Origin: Melioribacteraceae bacterium
GTDB lineage: Bacteria; Bacteroidota; Ignavibacteria; Ignavibacteriales; Melioribacteraceae
Direction: 5' to 3'
DNA: 64,000 nt
Assembly (NCBI GenBank): GCA_030584085.1
Contig: CP129490.1
Location: 3,629,511-3,693,510 of the forward strand
Made by a program: the position numbers and the translations under genes
Shown: in pieces, positions 13,068 through 18,468 of the stretch
Layout: each line of letters starts with the position of its first letter
Position numbering within the stretch: the first letter of the stretch is position 1
Notes under the pieces: generated by a model
What the model was told of the DNA's origin: nothing
The model's database searches: none
Seen by the model: the letters and a program-made list of their open reading frames with translations, nothing else

Positions 13068-14381
13068 ATGAAAAAATTACTTACAACGCTTTTGATTGTA
13101 TTCGGAGTTATAAGCGCACAAGAAAGAGTACTTACATTGGAAGAAAGTCTTCAACTCGGTTTGCAGAACAGCAAGCAGATAAAAATATCTCAGGCAGCAT
13201 TAAAAAGCAGCGAAGCGAAAGTATCCGAAGTCGGTTCACAAATGTTACCGCGGTTAAGCTTTGGAGCATCTTATACACGATTAAGTGATGTAAAATCGTT
13301 TGCAGTTACAGTTTCTTTTTCACAAACACCAATTACAATTCAAGAGACAATTTTAGATAACTACCAACTAAAGCTATCATTACAGCAACCGTTGTTTACG
13401 GGATTCAGATTGTCTTCACTAAAAAGTGCCGCTGAATACAATATGAAAGCAGCAGAATTTGAACATACAAAAGAGATAAACGAAGAAGCATTTAGAATTC
13501 ATCAAGCATTTTGGAGTTACTATAAAGCTCAAAAGGTCTCGCAGCTTGTTGAAGAAAATTTGAAATCTTTAGAGAAACATTTGATTGATACAAAAAACTT
13601 TTTAGAAAACGGACTTGTAACAAGAAACGATTTGCTGAAACTGGAAGTTCAGTATTCAAACACAGAGTTAAAAAGAATTGAAGCACAAAATGCGGTTGCT
13701 CTTGCTAAAACTGCGTTTAATAAGTCTGTCAGTTTACCTTTAAACTCGAACACGCAAGTCGAGGCGGAAGATCCGCAGGCAATTTCTGTAACTACAAAAT
13801 TTGATGATTTTTTAAACGAAGCAATGCAATCACGAGAAGAAATAAAATCACTGGAGTTTAAAATTAAAGCCGGTGAAGAAAATATTGATGCGGCTCAAGC
13901 AGGGTGGTTTCCGTCTGTCTTTCTTTTCGGTGATTATTATTACAGCAGACCAAATCAAAGAATTATGCCGCTTGAAGATAGATTTGAAGATACTTGGGCA
14001 GCGGGAGTCGGACTTAACTGGAATATTTTAGATTGGGGTGAAACATCCGCAAAAACAACTCAAGCCAAACAGCAGTTGATTCAAGCGGAAACAGCTTATC
14101 AAATTATTAAAGAGAACATCGAGCTTGAGGTTTATAAAGATTACTTAACAGCGCTCAGTGAATTTGAAAAAGTAAATGTATCGAAGAAATCAGTTGAACA
14201 AGCAGAAGAGAATTACAGAATAACAAAAGACAAATACAACCAGCAGCTTGCAACCAGCACGGATCTAATTGATGCCGAGGTTGCGTTATTAAACGCCCAA
14301 ACAAATCTAACTAATGCGTTGGTTGACTTAGAGTTAGCGAAAACGAAACTTGAAAAATCGGTGGGTCGCAACATTTATTAA
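13068..14381 (+). CDS. TolC-family outer membrane efflux protein
   Basis: A 437-residue protein with a signal peptide (about 1-17, Val-Ile-Ser-Ala-Gln) and two outer-membrane-efflux repeats. Each has a long helical part (about 25-190 and 235-430) and a beta part with alternating aromatic residues (for example Phe-Leu-Phe-Gly-Asp-Tyr-Tyr-Tyr). The ending Leu-Glu-Leu-Ala-Lys-Thr-Lys-Leu-Glu-Lys-Ser-Val-Gly is typical. It would form the trimeric exit duct for the adaptor and ABC permeases encoded around it. It lies 12 bases after the first ATPase. Having a dedicated TolC inside the operon differs from E. coli, where TolC is shared and encoded elsewhere. Confidence 0.9.
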   Translation: MKKLLTTLLIVFGVISAQERVLTLEESLQLGLQNSKQIKISQAALKSSEAKVSEVGSQMLPRLSFGASYTRLSDVKSFAVTVSFSQTPITIQETILDNYQLKLSLQQPLFTGFRLSSLKSAAEYNMKAAEFEHTKEINEEAFRIHQAFWSYYKAQKVSQLVEENLKSLEKHLIDTKNFLENGLVTRNDLLKLEVQYSNTELKRIEAQNAVALAKTAFNKSVSLPLNSNTQVEAEDPQAISVTTKFDDFLNEAMQSREEIKSLEFKIKAGEENIDAAQAGWFPSVFLFGDYYYSRPNQRIMPLEDRFEDTWAAGVGLNWNILDWGETSAKTTQAKQQLIQAETAYQIIKENIELEVYKDYLTALSEFEKVNVSKKSVEQAEENYRITKDKYNQQLATSTDLIDAEVALLNAQTNLTNALVDLELAKTKLEKSVGRNIY

Positions 14382-14383
14382 TT

Positions 14384-14411
14384 GAGGAGTCAGAAGCAAG
14401 AAGTAAGAATA
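14384..14411. repeat. Left heptad array of four-helix-bundle element 1
   Basis: Four successive 7-base units (gaggagt, cagaagc, aagaagt, aagaata) with consensus close to nAGAAGt. It lies just before the ribosome-binding site of the small disrupted gene and is complementary to the array at 14774-14801. Confidence 0.75.
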
Positions 14412-14428
14412 AAAACAAGGAGGACCAA

Positions 14429-14790
14429 ATGGCAAAATCAAAAAGATTTACCGAGCTCATTGTTTGGCAAAAAGCGCATAAATTAGTTTTAGAGATTTAT
14501 AAATCAACAAAACAATTTCCAAAAGAAGAAACATTGGTTTAACATCTCAAATTCGTCGTGCTGCTATTTCCATTCCCGCTAATATTGTCGAGGGATATAG
14601 GAGACGAGGCGAATTGGATAAATCAAAATTCTTAAATGTATCCCATGGTTCACTTGAAGAAGTTAAATACTTTTTGATTCTGGCAAAAGACTTGAATTAC
14701 ATTAATGAAAATAACATTGAACCGTTAACGGAAGAAGTCGGAAAACTATTGGATTCGTATATGAAAAAAATTCTGTCTTCTGTCTCCTAA
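14429..14790 (+). pseudogene. Four-helix-bundle protein (S23/bIVP family), frameshifted copy
   Basis: A near twin of the intact gene at 16907-17281. Translation from ATG 14429, after a perfect aaggagg site, gives Phe-Thr-Glu-Leu-Ile-Val-Trp-Gln-Lys-Ala-His-Lys-Leu and stops after about 37 residues at TAA. One base is missing near 14533-14537 compared with the twin; in the next frame the protein continues with Leu-Thr-Ser-Gln-Ile-Arg-Arg-Ala-Ala-Ile-Ser-Ile-Pro-Ala-Asn-Ile and the rest of the family pattern to the TAA at 14788-14790. The rest of the frame is clean, so the break is recent or a sequencing error. The family (Pfam 23S rRNA-intervening sequence protein) has no settled function. Confidence 0.85.
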
Positions 14791-14801
14791 CTTCTGACTT
14801 C
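14774..14801. repeat. Right heptad array of four-helix-bundle element 1
   Basis: Four 7-base units (tgtcttc, tgtctcc, taacttc, tgacttc), consensus TnactTC, the reverse complement of the left array. The stop codon of the small gene lies inside it, so the array encodes its last residues. Confidence 0.75.
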
Positions 14802-14814
14802 TTAAAAGATCAAA

Positions 14815-15750
14815 ATGAAAAACAGCATACAAGTAAATAATCTGACAAAACGCTTCGGCAACTTCACCGCCGTCGATAATATTTCCTTTAACGTGAAAGA
14901 GGGAGAAGTGTTTGGGTTTTTAGGTGCTAATGGAGCGGGTAAATCTACGGCAATTAGAATGTTATGCGGAATACTTTCTCCAACCTCGGGCGATGCAATT
15001 GTCGGTGGATACAGTGTGATGAGTGAGCCGGACAAAGTAAAACAAGTAATCGGATATATGTCGCAGAAGTTTTCACTTTATAATGATCTGTCCGTTGAAG
15101 AAAACATAAATTTCTTCGGTGGTGTTTATGGTTTGGAAGGTAAGAAATTTAAAGAAAGAAAAGATTGGGTTTTGCAAATAGCTAACTTAAAAGGGAAAGA
15201 AAAACTCTTAACAAGTTCGCTTCCAGGCGGCATAAAACAGCGACTTGCGCTCGGTGCTGCAGTTATTCACGAACCGGAAATTGTCTTTTTGGATGAACCG
15301 ACAAGCGGCGTCGATCCGATTTCAAGAAGAAATTTTTGGGATCTCATCAACGATCTCTCTGCAAACGGGACTACGGTTTTTGTGACGACTCACTATTTGG
15401 AAGAAGCCGAATACTGCAACAACATAACATTAATTAATGCTGGAAAAATTATTGCGGAAGGAAATGCAAGCGAACTAAAAACCAATTACATCAAAAATAA
15501 AATTTATGAAATTGAATGCGAACGTGTTGTTGATGCACTCGATATTCTTCAAAATGAAAATTATGTGGATGAAACATCAATCTTCGGTAATAACATTCAT
15601 ATAATTGTAAATGACGACTTCAATAGTGAAGAACAAATTAAGACAACATTAACAGACAAACATTCAATCGCAATAAAACGAATAGATAAAATCGTACCAA
15701 CGCTTGAAGATGTTTTTATTCATCTATTAGACAAAGAGTACAACAGATGA
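14815..15750 (+). CDS. ABC exporter ATPase B (YbhF C-half-like)
   Basis: A 311-residue ABC ATPase, paralogous to the one at 12147-13055. Walker A is Gly-Ala-Asn-Gly-Ala-Gly-Lys-Ser (37-44), Walker B Ile-Val-Phe-Leu-Asp-Glu (156-161), and the H-loop His is present at 193 (Thr-Thr-His-Tyr-Leu). The signature is altered to Leu-Pro-Gly-Gly-Ile (136-140) instead of Leu-Ser-Gly-Gly. This is complementary to the partner, which has the normal signature and lacks the His. Its stop overlaps the next start by four bases (ATGA), so it is translationally coupled to the first permease. It starts 13 bases after the heptad array of element 1. Confidence 0.9.
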   Translation: MKNSIQVNNLTKRFGNFTAVDNISFNVKEGEVFGFLGANGAGKSTAIRMLCGILSPTSGDAIVGGYSVMSEPDKVKQVIGYMSQKFSLYNDLSVEENINFFGGVYGLEGKKFKERKDWVLQIANLKGKEKLLTSSLPGGIKQRLALGAAVIHEPEIVFLDEPTSGVDPISRRNFWDLINDLSANGTTVFVTTHYLEEAEYCNNITLINAGKIIAEGNASELKTNYIKNKIYEIECERVVDALDILQNENYVDETSIFGNNIHIIVNDDFNSEEQIKTTLTDKHSIAIKRIDKIVPTLEDVFIHLLDKEYNR

Positions 15751-16889
15751 TCAGTCCGGCAAGAATAAAAGCAGTTGCGAAAAAAGAAGTAAAACAAATC
15801 AGTCGCGATACGAGGTTTTTGATTATTCTATTCTCACTTCCGGTTTTTCTGCTTGTTCTTTTTGGTTATGCCGTCAATTTTGACGTAAAAAACATCAACC
15901 TTGCTGTTCAAGATTTAGATAAATCTAAAGAGAGTCGTGAGTTTATTCAATCGTTGACAAGCTCAGAGTACTTTGATCTTGTTGAATATTTTAACGAAGA
16001 AGCAAAAGCGACGTCGGCGCTTGATGAAAAACGTGCTCAAGTTGTGATGGTAATTCCCTCGGACTTTTCAGAAAAGATGTACCGCGCAAAGGAAGAAGCA
16101 AAAGTACAGTTTTTAATCGACGGAGTTGATGGCAATACTGCAACTATTATTAAAAATTATGTTGATGCAGCAACATTAAAATATAACTCAGAATTTCAGA
16201 GGGAGATGTTTGCTAAACTGGGAATCAATCCTTTTACTCCAATCGATTTACAGCCGATATTTTGGTTCAACCCTGAACTAGAGACAACCGTGTTTTTAAT
16301 TCCCGGTTTAATTGCGATGATTTTAATTATTACTTCTGTTGTTAGTGTTGCCCTTTCGCTTGTTCGTGAAAAAGAGAGAGGCACAATTGAACAGATAAAT
16401 GTTTCGTCACTCAACACTTTGGAGGTAATGCTCGGCAAGGTTCTGCCTTATATTATTATCGCATTAATTGATGCTGTCTTCATTTTAATTGCCGGATATA
16501 TTTTGTTCGATGTGATTGTTAAAGGTGATTACTTTTTGATGTTCTTCAGCACACTCATTTTTATAATTGCCAGCACAAGTTTGGGAATATTTATATCAAC
16601 CGTTTCGGATTCTCAGCAAGTAGCATTTACTGCGGCAACGTTTGCTTCTATGCTGCCGTCGTTAATTTTATCCGGATTCATTTTCCCTATTGAAAGTATG
16701 CCCGAAATTATACAATGGTTGACGAACATAACTCCTGCTAAGTTTTACTTAACAACACTTCGTGCAATTATGCTGCGAGGAGTTGGTCTTGAAGCTTTTT
16801 GGCTGCAATGGATTTATCTCGGAATTTTTACCGTGTTCTTTTTAGCGTTAGGAAATATAATTTCAAAGAAAAAAGAAGCTAGGAGCTAG
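15747..16889 (+). CDS. ABC-2 permease 1 (YbhS/YbhR-like)
   Basis: A 380-residue permease: one N-terminal transmembrane helix (about 25-43), a large periplasmic domain (about 45-175) and five C-terminal helices starting near 185. The motif Val-Arg-Glu-Lys-Glu-Arg-Gly-Thr-Ile-Glu-Gln follows the second helix and is the usual ATPase-contact loop of this family. The periplasmic part has Asp-Gly-Val-Asp-Gly-Asn-Thr-Ala, shared with permease 2. It overlaps the ATPase by four bases. Its last codons and stop (16887-16889) are formed by the left heptad array of element 2, so the native end has probably been altered by the insertion. Confidence 0.9.
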   Translation: MISPARIKAVAKKEVKQISRDTRFLIILFSLPVFLLVLFGYAVNFDVKNINLAVQDLDKSKESREFIQSLTSSEYFDLVEYFNEEAKATSALDEKRAQVVMVIPSDFSEKMYRAKEEAKVQFLIDGVDGNTATIIKNYVDAATLKYNSEFQREMFAKLGINPFTPIDLQPIFWFNPELETTVFLIPGLIAMILIITSVVSVALSLVREKERGTIEQINVSSLNTLEVMLGKVLPYIIIALIDAVFILIAGYILFDVIVKGDYFLMFFSTLIFIIASTSLGIFISTVSDSQQVAFTAATFASMLPSLILSGFIFPIESMPEIIQWLTNITPAKFYLTTLRAIMLRGVGLEAFWLQWIYLGIFTVFFLALGNIISKKKEARS

Positions 16890-16901
16890 AAACAAGGAGT
16901 T
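16874..16901. repeat. Left heptad array of four-helix-bundle element 2
   Basis: Four 7-base units (agaagct, aggagct, agaaaca, aggagtt). It overlaps the end of the upstream permease gene and supplies its stop codon, and also contains the aaggag ribosome-binding site for the next gene. Confidence 0.75.
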
Positions 16902-16906
16902 ATAAA

Positions 16907-17281
16907 ATGAACAAATCAAAAAGTTTTACTGAATTAATCGTTTGGCAAAAATCTCATAAATTAGTTCTCAACATATATAAACTAACAAAGTTATTTCCCA
17001 AAGAAGAATTATATTCTTTAACTTCTCAAATGAGGCGTTCAGCAATTTCAATTCCAGCTAACATTGCTGAGGGCTACAAAAAGAAAACACCCAAAGATAA
17101 ACTTAGATTTTTCAATGTGGCTGAAGGTTCCCTTGAAGAATTAAAATATTACTTAATCTTAGCAAGGGATTTAAAGTACTGCAAAATTGATGATTTGATT
17201 GATCCAACAAATGAAATCGGCAAATTAATTAATGGTTATACAAACTCAATAAAAAAGAATAATGAAAATTCTATCTCCTAG
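16907..17281 (+). CDS. Four-helix-bundle protein (S23/bIVP family), intact copy
   Basis: A 124-residue, mainly helical protein of the family called four-helix-bundle or 23S rRNA-intervening-sequence protein. Family marks are Phe-Thr-Glu-Leu-Ile-Val-Trp-Gln-Lys-Ser-His-Lys-Leu at 7-19, Leu-Thr-Ser-Gln-Met-Arg-Arg-Ser-Ala-Ile-Ser-Ile-Pro-Ala-Asn-Ile-Ala-Glu-Gly in the middle and Gly-Ser-Leu-Glu-Glu-Leu-Lys-Tyr-Tyr-Leu. Members are pentameric bundles, some related to the Avd accessory protein of diversity-generating retroelements, and are encoded within intervening sequences of some 23S rRNA genes; no function is proven. It lies between two permease genes, enclosed by inverted heptad arrays. No retroelement or rRNA is nearby. 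Confidence 0.9.
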   Translation: MNKSKSFTELIVWQKSHKLVLNIYKLTKLFPKEELYSLTSQMRRSAISIPANIAEGYKKKTPKDKLRFFNVAEGSLEELKYYLILARDLKYCKIDDLIDPTNEIGKLINGYTNSIKKNNENSIS

Positions 17282-17299
17282 CTCCTTTCTTCTAACTTC
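17272..17299. repeat. Right heptad array of four-helix-bundle element 2
   Basis: Four 7-base units (tatctcc, tagctcc, tttcttc, taacttc), reverse complementary in consensus to the left array. As in element 1, the small gene's stop codon lies in the array. Confidence 0.75.
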
Positions 17300-17337
17300 T
17301 TAGCAAACGAGCTCGGAGATTAAGCATACGCAAAAAA

Positions 17338-18468
17338 ATGAAAACTATAATTTACTTCATACAAAAAGAGTTTTTACAATTCAAACGTGATCCGAAGATG
17401 TTTGCGATGATTTTAGTTGCACCTATTATTCAACTAATCTTCCTCGGTTACGCGGCAAACTTTGATGTAAATGTTGTTCATACTGCAGTGTATGATATGG
17501 ATAAAACCGAAGCAAGCAGAAAGTATGTTGAAAGTTTTGAATCGACCGGGTATTACTCATCTGATTATTATGTTGATAACTATGATCAATTAACTAAACA
17601 CATCGATAACGCAGAAGTAATAATGGGCTTGGTAATACCCCGAGGATTCGAAGAAAAAATCAATCGAATAGAGACCGTGCAAGTTCAAGCAATTTTTGAC
17701 GGATCGGATGGCAACACAGCTTCGATTGCTGCCGGATATTTACAAGGCATAACTCAAAGATATTCCAAAGAAATTGTAACCGACATACGAAATAAACTCG
17801 GACTACAACTTATTCCTGTTGGCTCAGTTCAGTCGGAAACTCGTGTTTGGTACAACCCAGAATTAAAGACTAGAAATTTTATGGTGCCGGGAATAGTTGC
17901 GCTGTTGTTAATGATCATAACATTAATTTTAACATCGTTAGCAATAGTTAAAGAAAAAGAAATCGGGACACTTGAGCAGTTAATTGTAACACCAATTAAG
18001 CCAATACAAATGATAATCGGTAAGCTTATTCCATTTACACTATTGGGATTTGCTGCAGTCATATTAGTAATTACTGCAATGAATATAATATTTGGGATTG
18101 CGGTAAAGGGGAGCGCAATTTTTCTTTTAATTTCTTCTTTTGTTTTTATTTTATCAACACTCGGACTCGGATTGTTCGTATCAACAATCTCAAAGACGCA
18201 ACAGCAGGCGATGATGCTCGCAATCTTTTTGATAATGATGCCGATGGTCTTTCTTTCCGGTTTTGCATTCCCAATTGAAAATATGCCTGAAATTATTCAA
18301 GCAATTACATATATAATTCCGCTTAGATATTTTATGACTATCATCCGCGGAATTATATTAAAAGGAATCGGCTTTGCCGATCTTTGGATACAACTTTTGG
18401 CAATGCTCGGGCTTGGTGTATTGATCTTAAGTTTAAGCGTAATGCGTTTCCAAAAACGGATAGATTAA
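17338..18468 (+). CDS. ABC-2 permease 2 (YbhR/YbhS-like)
   Basis: A 376-residue paralogue of permease 1 with the same plan: N-terminal helix, periplasmic domain (about 45-175) with Asp-Gly-Ser-Asp-Gly-Asn-Thr-Ala, then five helices. The ATPase-contact loop reads Val-Lys-Glu-Lys-Glu-Ile-Gly-Thr-Leu-Glu-Gln, and Pro-Ile-Glu-Asn-Met-Pro-Glu-Ile-Ile-Gln is shared with permease 1. The two would form a heterodimer, matching the two non-identical ATPases. It is the last gene of the operon and converges, 13 bases apart, on the carbonic anhydrase gene; no terminator is seen there. Confidence 0.9.
   Translation: MKTIIYFIQKEFLQFKRDPKMFAMILVAPIIQLIFLGYAANFDVNVVHTAVYDMDKTEASRKYVESFESTGYYSSDYYVDNYDQLTKHIDNAEVIMGLVIPRGFEEKINRIETVQVQAIFDGSDGNTASIAAGYLQGITQRYSKEIVTDIRNKLGLQLIPVGSVQSETRVWYNPELKTRNFMVPGIVALLLMIITLILTSLAIVKEKEIGTLEQLIVTPIKPIQMIIGKLIPFTLLGFAAVILVITAMNIIFGIAVKGSAIFLLISSFVFILSTLGLGLFVSTISKTQQQAMMLAIFLIMMPMVFLSGFAFPIENMPEIIQAITYIIPLRYFMTIIRGIILKGIGFADLWIQLLAMLGLGVLILSLSVMRFQKRID

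Follow-up and report, generated by a model that had tools for sequence, protein, structure and literature searches.

S23-family genes enclosed by inverted heptad arrays in an exporter operon: candidate relatives of the rRNA intervening sequence between protein genes

A stretch of 64,000 nucleotides from a Melioribacteraceae bacterium (assembly GCA_030584085.1), referred to here as the window, corresponds to C1:3629511-3693510 of genome G000, a one-contig genome of 3.74 Mb. It contains an exporter operon in the order outer-membrane efflux gene, unit 1, ATP-binding cassette (ABC) ATPase, permease 1, unit 2 and permease 2, and the two units occupy two gaps of this operon, denoted slot 1 and slot 2 (Table 1). 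A first-pass annotation, made from the sequence alone, had described each unit as a small gene of the S23/bIVP family enclosed by inverted arrays of seven-base words (heptads), element 1 being 418 bp and element 2 426 bp long by the ends that it set. We have followed up this description in the window, in relatives, in other phyla and in phages; in the window the arms, stop codons and predicted pairing are as it gave them.

The arms of element 2 (16867-16891 and 17269-17293) are 88% complementary over 25 nt, with an alternative pairing of 33 nt at 73%. The stop of the TolC-like efflux gene abuts the left arm of element 1. Both unit genes had been said to stop inside their right arrays, and permease 1 inside the left array of element 2; the coordinates agree (permease 1, 16887-16889; gene 2, 17279-17281; gene 1 when read in its C-terminal frame, 14788-14790). 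The arrays had also been proposed to pair as an RNA hairpin, and in folding predictions both units beat 100 dinucleotide shuffles, none of which equalled either unit (z -3.4 for element 1 and -2.9 for element 2). The arms are partly paired with each other in both predicted minimum-energy structures, and the computed duplex energy of the arms alone is -29.4 kcal/mol (element 1) and -26.2 kcal/mol (element 2).

The presence of an S23/bIVP gene in both units stands for element 2, where the gene is intact, and needs qualification for element 1, where it is frameshifted. Gene 2 is a PF05635 member (130.1 bits, cut-off 33.8), and a family search at E <= 0.001 returned PF05635 and PF22296 alone, with no nuclease, Y1 transposase or recombinase family. 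Avd of the diversity-generating retroelements is a related four-helix-bundle protein, but gene 2 differs in that it falls below the cut-off of both Avd models (PF22296, 39.8 bits against 40; the equivalog NF033474, 34.8 against 80). Its relatives in the PDB, 2gsc and 2rld, have five chains each. Gene 1 starts at 14429, reads MAKSKRFTELIVWQKAHKLVLEIYKSTKQFPKEETLV and then meets a stop, with the remainder in another frame. It is missing from the list of open reading frames (ORFs), and the profile search of the genome gives it in two pieces, divided by the frameshift, with PF05635 matches of 89.1 bits (C-terminal) and 28.5 bits (N-terminal). The break is either a pseudogene mutation or a sequencing error.

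Table 1. Exporter operon of the window and the parts of its two units (positions counted from the first base of the window).
Feature	Position	Strand	Basis
Outer-membrane efflux (TolC-like) gene, upstream of slot 1	13068..14381	+	ORF list; PF02321 E=3.7e-65
Element 1 left arm, about four AGAAGT-type heptads	14382..14409	+	Inverted pair, 28 nt, 75% complementary
bIVP/S23 gene 1, frameshifted	14429..14790	+	Three-frame translation; split PF05635 matches
Element 1 right arm, complementary heptads	14778..14805	+	Inverted pair with 14382..14409
ABC transporter ATPase gene, between slot 1 and permease 1	14815..15750	+	ORF list; PF00005 E=1.7e-27
ABC-2 type permease 1	15747..16889	+	ORF list; PF12698 E=3.4e-55
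Element 2 left arm, 25-nt core	16867..16891	+	Inverted pairs; weaker, longer pairing extends to 16905
bIVP/S23 gene 2, intact, 124 aa, four-helix-bundle family	16907..17281	+	PF05635 E=4.6e-38; TIGR02436 E=2.9e-37
Element 2 right arm, holds the gene 2 stop	17269..17301	+	Inverted pairs
ABC-2 type permease 2, downstream of slot 2	17338..18468	+	ORF list; PF12698 E=5.5e-53

The array-gene-array unit is general among relatives. G000 has eight PF05635 rows above the cut-off (a weak match and the N-terminal half of gene 1 account for two further rows), and the family was found in 54 of 58 relatives, with up to 31 matches in one genome. For each locus, the 200 bases of upstream flank were locally aligned to the reverse complement of the 200 bases of downstream flank, and the alignment was scored. 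The 98 bIVP loci scored comprise the eight of G000, 29 from the search of relatives and 61 from 60 further stretches down the ranked list, and are the stronger matches of that list, not a random sample. Their matched flanks have a median of 19 vs 11 for flanks swapped between loci; 60 lie above the 95th percentile of the swapped scores and 34 above the 99th. Scores of at least 15 are reached by 80 loci and of at least 19 by 51, whereas 618 control genes of the same genome have a median of 11.5 and reach these values in 9.1% and 1.3% of cases. On either side of the bIVP genes the lag that most often scores best is 7 (49 loci upstream, 51 downstream), a lag of 8 being best in 17 and 9; among the control genes, lag 7 is best upstream in 4.2%. 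The first-pass annotation had named a lack of heptads at most S23 genes of relatives as evidence against its reading, and these 98 loci do not show such a lack.

The units also extend well beyond the relatives. From 589 confirmed candidates in named genomes we took the best 80, which include many Bacteroidota as well as Proteobacteria, the candidate phyla radiation (CPR), Acidobacteria, Omnitrophota, Clostridia and two Methanophagales archaea, going by record titles. These 80 loci have a matched median of 20 vs 10 swapped, with 64 above the 95th percentile and 34 above the 99th. Lag 7 is best in 35 upstream and 31 downstream flanks, and lag 8 in 18 and 17; the two archaeal loci score 18 (L166) and 7.5 (L169). 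On viral contigs 18 of 22 loci lie above the swapped 95th percentile, a 23rd having been dropped (45-residue match); several of these contigs share one unit, and the cases are not independent. Chance or low complexity was considered as the cause of the arms, and is ruled out by the swapped arms, the shuffles, the control genes and the control lags.

The flanks are inverted arrays of 7-base, sometimes 8-base words, often with 4-6 units. In the 81 loci with both arms clearly periodic there are 68 different words (by exact comparison after rotation, with one artefact removed). Among the arms of 200 loci passing the score cut, 166 have period 7 and 41 have period 8, and no shuffled flank reached the period-7 cut. 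The 166 period-7 arrays have rounded counts of five units in 54 cases, four in 48, six in 25 and other numbers in 39, a length suggestive of a match to a pentamer. The two arms have a vocabulary in common more than they form an exact palindrome. An exact palindrome copied whole was considered and rejected; the heptad-order test, in which 56 of 86 loci lie above the mean obtained with shuffled units and five reach p<=0.05 singly, gives it weak support. The idea that protein clade fixes the period as 7 or 8 was also set aside, with 8 changes on the tree vs 9.5 shuffled (33 and 36 of 500 shuffles as low; 69 of the 98 loci labelled). The arm 5' of the loop is G-rich, with more G than C in 67 of 72 and in 52 of 62 left arms. 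As a marker of gene direction this was rejected, since inverted arms show G-richness on both strands and it is therefore uninformative on direction.

Among the 86 of the 98 loci that have periodic arms, the similarity of the words climbs with protein identity. Array similarity is 9.17 in the 149 pairs whose proteins are at least 55% identical and for which no common neighbour was detected, vs 6.37 when permuted (standard deviation, sd, 0.24); none of 2000 permutations among loci reached 9.17, and opposite-strand similarity is 5.5. Words thus track protein relatedness even without any neighbouring gene in common. The bIVP protein is under purifying selection, the ratio of nonsynonymous to synonymous change (dN/dS) being 0.053-0.095 in seven of ten pairs, of which three have a dS above 1.6. 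In the remaining three pairs dS is saturated twice, and a distant pair (40% identity) gives 0.75. A stop falls inside the PF05635 match in nine of the 98 loci.

Arrays of this kind also occur alone. We scanned 856.6 kb of G000 for segments of period 7 or 8, with a loose and then a stricter cut. At the loose cut there are 61 periodic segments, of which nine have an inverted partner scoring at least 14.5; all nine are at bIVP genes, and six of the eight bIVP loci there are represented. The value of 14.5 was chosen after the list was seen, with the bIVP loci L003 and L005 below it and the best segment away from bIVP genes at 14.0. At the stricter cut 22 of 28 segments are solo. Lags 7 and 8 give 18 and 11 segments vs 0-9 for six control lags, and block shuffles give 3 for lags 7 and 8 together. 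The 22 solo arrays are nearer to the bIVP arms of their own genome than to those of other genomes (0.404 vs 0.344; sd 0.023; 0 of 500 draws). Solo arrays are what would be expected if ordinary slippage repeats, unrelated to the gene, had been scattered in the genome and bIVP genes had landed in them by chance. We think this very improbable indeed: insertion into an array predicts the same orientation on both sides and the arms are inverted, every segment with an inverted partner of at least 14.5 in the 857 kb is at a bIVP gene, the words follow protein relatedness, and the swapped-arm and control-gene tests contradict it.

Presence and absence of a whole unit at one site in close relatives, as expected of a mobile element, is seen at two phage sites. 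In phage L264 the stretch from an AAAGGAG motif to the following start measures 431 bp, or 426 counted from the stop; L265, L266, L268, L271, L309 and L295 have 8-10 bp there. Over 300 bases of left flank L264 is identical at 280-289 positions to L265, L266, L268, L271 and L309 and at 256 to L295; over 1000 bases of right flank the identities are 873-911, with L271 at 889 of 1028 including a gap. In L369, 463 bp separate a stop from a common GAAGTTT, vs 20 in L368 and 61 in L366, and the flanks are identical to those of L368 and L366 at 186 and 191 of 200 positions (left) and 577 and 576 of 600 (right). By eye, the phage junctions show no clear target-site duplication. A tblastn search located the family at 3 of 80 capsid loci and at 2 of 80 terminase loci, with contig ends truncating many of the stretches. 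In L369 the right heptad array (974-1012) overruns the first codons of the downstream terminase gene, whose N-terminus reads MSQISALE vs MSTPSAIE in L368, with length unchanged.

The first-pass annotation had also stated that the units lie in the direction of transcription. This is borne out by the cellular units, which are co-oriented with the upstream neighbour in 86 of 87 cases scored (98 set) and 65 of 69 (80 set), above the own-genome baseline of 472 of 592. With the downstream neighbour the counts are 37 of 41 and 57 of 65; a looser rule than the one behind these counts gives 89 of 89 upstream and 81 of 85 downstream in sense for the 98 set. It does not extend to the viral units, which are mostly antisense (of the neighbours scored, those in sense number 6 of 21 upstream and 2 of 20 downstream). 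Insertion at RNA level in the sense direction only was considered on the strength of cellular co-orientation and then rejected, being weakened by the antisense viral units; sense-RNA insertion is therefore not the sole route.

Some gaps have held their units for a long time. Nine groups of loci with common neighbours were mapped on a bIVP protein tree (98 rows by 105 columns, with a bootstrap that had not settled), in which the protein of element 1 (L004) had been misread, affecting its long branch and the three changes of slot 1. The leu group (11 loci), the nuoC|nuoD group (10) and a group denoted c3 (3) require one change each, and the other six groups, including slot 1 and slot 2 of the exporter operon, two or three each. 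The nuoC|nuoD loci are all in one gap, and the leu loci are in two adjacent gaps (6 and 5) that are mixed on the tree, the gene names being assigned from the sequences. In one leu operon of G048 and G019 (L054, with two units, L089 and L090), two bIVP units lie about 1 kb apart in adjacent gaps.

Within these gaps the two arms of one unit tend to change together. Matched arms score 20.5 vs 14.6 swapped in the nuoC|nuoD gap (10 loci; 1 of 20000 permutations as high), 21.0 vs 12.8 in leu gap A (6 loci; 2 of all 720) and 18.2 vs 10.9 in leu gap B (5 loci; the true pairing alone among all 120 scores as high). With RNA duplex energy the corresponding counts are 4 of 20000, 15 of 720 and 1 of 120. 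In 16 syntenic clusters matched arms score above the mean of swapped arms in 47 of 59 loci. Since the arms match within each unit though the words have turned over, we prefer a stem that would be maintained by selection for pairing. Many units appear to be old residents, because the nuoC|nuoD and leu gaps hold single-clade bIVP proteins with changed arms. The annotation had called the units mobile, and had given orthologous operons that keep the gene at the same place with diverged flanks as evidence to the contrary. The nuoC|nuoD gap and the two leu gaps are partly of that description, and the whole units present or absent in phages are in turn consistent with mobility.

The long stay of units in the leu and nuoC|nuoD gaps, which spans families and orders, may instead point to a resident autoregulatory gene, whose S23 ring would bind the 5' heptads of its own message and switch the translation or stability of the polycistron, with mobility rare and incidental. 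Purifying selection on the protein and co-orientation at cellular loci are consistent with this, as are arrays of 4-6 units beside the five-chain PDB entries and the published homopentamer (PMC4990558). We judge it improbable, as no single function unites the host operons seen (exporter, nuo and leu among them), units are present or absent in phages, and a plain binding site would not need mirror-image arms.

The exporter operon was compared at 20 loci in relatives and in G000 itself, with slot 1 readable in 16 and slot 2 in 20; a homologue of the ABC ATPase is present in all 20. Slot 1 holds a bIVP gene in L100 (the broken gene of G000), L102, L112 and L116. In L104 (G004) it has a heptad hairpin with no gene, in L101 and L113 there are other hairpins, and in several of the remaining loci the distance from stop to start is only tens of bases. 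In slot 2, L100 and L104 have a bIVP gene, L102 has a truncated one, L108 has a GIY-YIG gene and L101 has another hairpin. Neither slot of the same-genus genome G002 (L101; permease 94% identical) contains a bIVP gene, and each contains a different hairpin. These hairpins in L101 (both slots) and L113 (slot 1) are gene-less, about 80-100 nt long, with degenerate GGAACACAGA-type repeats, and look like another family of inverted-repeat elements, which may be linked to GxxExxY-type repeats. The GIY-YIG gene (PF01541; L108:887-1168, minus strand) lies between both permeases with a repeated CCGGAATCTC-type sequence on either side, by eye. In the gap between the ATPase and permease 1 of L117 is a Y1 transposase gene (PF01797; L117:2678-3235, minus strand), in sense with the operon and with short hairpins on either side, again by eye. 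Elsewhere in G000 a gene-less hairpin with L005-like words lies at C1 about 1446356-1446458, about 2 kb from the bIVP locus L005.

Such gene-less hairpins recall the repetitive extragenic palindromic (REP) sequences and their associated transposase RAYT (TnpA_REP), where a small gene also lies between inverted repeats and gene-less relatives are scattered. Each REP is a single palindrome, and RAYT belongs to the Y1 nucleases. The units described here differ in their heptad arrays and in gene 2, which has no match to a nuclease family, the Y1 (HUH) transposases included. A DNA element of the REP/RAYT type could still account for them if the S23 protein recognised its DNA ends and a host or foreign transposase moved the unit in trans, the gene-less hairpins and solo arrays being non-autonomous offspring. 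The hairpins in slot 1 of G004 and near 1446356 argue for this, as do the resemblance of the 22 solo arrays to bIVP arms of their own genome, the Y1 transposase and GIY-YIG genes in other gaps of relatives' exporter operons, and the mostly antisense lie of the viral units. To our knowledge, no nuclease is known in PF05635, which counts against it together with the lack of a clear target-site duplication by eye at the phage junctions. The arms also stay matched during word turnover, which the DNA ends of an immobile unit would not need. We regard a DNA element as possible, if rather unlikely.

The closest known anatomy is that of the intervening sequence (IVS) in the 23S rRNA gene of Coxiella, which carries an S23 gene and 28-bp terminal inverted repeats, is cut by RNase III within the stem, and has tandem GACAGAT heptamers before the start codon (PMC4990558). 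The resemblance to S23-bearing 23S rRNA IVSs that the annotation had pointed out is thus upheld: the units likewise have an S23-family gene in the loop, 28-bp inverted ends and heptamers before the start, and the window units are close in size to the Coxiella IVS of 428 or 444 nt (PMC4990558). Their ends are complementary with the S23 gene in the loop of the predicted pairing. Heptameric repeats stand at the 5' end of the unit, a trait of the Coxiella IVS that we do not know to be general among IVSs (PMC4990558). The differences are that both window units lie between exporter genes, not inside an rRNA gene, that units of this kind occupy protein-gene gaps and phages with 68 words in 81 loci, and that heptads stand on both sides here, where the Coxiella IVS is reported to have them on the 5' side (PMC4990558). 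The same source gives a homopentamer structure for a Xanthomonas relative of S23, and doubts whether the Coxiella protein is made. The family is still termed functionally uncharacterised, and CPR bacteria have 23S_rRNA_IVP genes in rRNA insertions (PMC11270868). Four helix bundle genes are also listed in predicted phage regions of a Flavobacterium (PMC5524665) and as strain-specific genes in Arthrospira (PMC8700078). In the collected loci, a crude check for two 23S motifs gave scattered one-mismatch matches to the shorter motif and none to the longer.

We consider it fairly probable that the units are IVS-like RNA stem-loop elements which mostly live between protein genes. They are best filed as a new form of the S23 intervening-sequence kind, having the anatomy of an IVS and failing its defining location in rRNA. 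We infer that RNA is their level of action, that their stems are cut by RNase III, that an S23 ring binds the heptads, and that the units move or propagate themselves; RNase III cutting is established for the Coxiella IVS (PMC4990558) and is assigned here by analogy. Each unit has a heptad array on the left, then an S23/bIVP gene, and on the right an array of the heptad in reverse complement. Within a transcript crossing it, the arrays would pair into an imperfect stem of about 25-30 bp with the gene in the loop. This stem would probably be cut by RNase III, as in 23S rRNA IVSs, separating the element from the flanking message, and a unit between genes would therefore be tolerated. Binding to its own heptad array is proposed for the S23 protein, whose solved relatives are pentamers.

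Several findings weigh against this RNA stem-loop reading. Flanks at 38 of the 98 loci are not above the swapped 95th percentile, and 18 score below 15. Heptad order is weakly mirrored between the arms (16.8 vs 15.7 with right-arm units shuffled), and periods 7 and 8 have no clear fit to the protein tree. Matched arms fail to beat the mean of swapped arms in 12 of the 59 loci of the syntenic clusters, and swapped arms do no worse than matched ones in slot 1 (5 loci) or in c3 (3 loci). Hairpin-templated repair, without an RNA function, could also account for the coupled change of the arms. The phage comparison is compatible with gain or loss alike, and the antisense viral units belong here too. 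The readings set out above overlap, and our degrees of confidence in them are not meant as shares of a whole.

The RNA stem-loop reading can be taken further, in a tentative form that we think unlikely. S23 would read sequence as a ring of five subunits, each holding a single 7-base word of single-stranded RNA, with about five heptads wrapping the ring in competition with the stem. Array and ring would co-evolve, the heptad arrays scattered in many bacterial genomes would be footprints and non-autonomous offspring of S23 units, and the rRNA IVS would be a special case of a mobile RNA stem-loop found mostly in messages and phages. TRAP offers a comparison, as it wraps RNA repeats around its ring.

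With these units, a common gene family known mainly from 23S rRNA gains an architecture that can be recognised from sequence. Among the open-licence literature matches listed we found no description of inverted heptad arrays around S23 genes outside rRNA; subscription literature is mostly outside that list, and absence is unproven. Seven-base repeats are tied to the S23 family, which opens a direct test of what the protein binds, and a unit that is present or absent between close relatives, with no recognised nuclease, is found settling in the gap from one gene's stop to the following gene's start. The units also provide a lead on heptamer arrays of unexplained origin, such as the TAACTGA repeats of Beggiatoaceae, cyanobacteria and Bacteroidetes (PMC4679880). 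Those are similarly tandem intergenic 7-mers, often just before start codons and scattered in distribution, but they have a single fixed word, are nearly always direct, and are not linked to S23 in the excerpted text (PMC4679880). In G000 itself, clusters of octad and heptad arrays (TTCCATT- and TTCTGAC-type) lie at C1:1422986-1426750 and 1578920-1593700, mostly away from bIVP genes.

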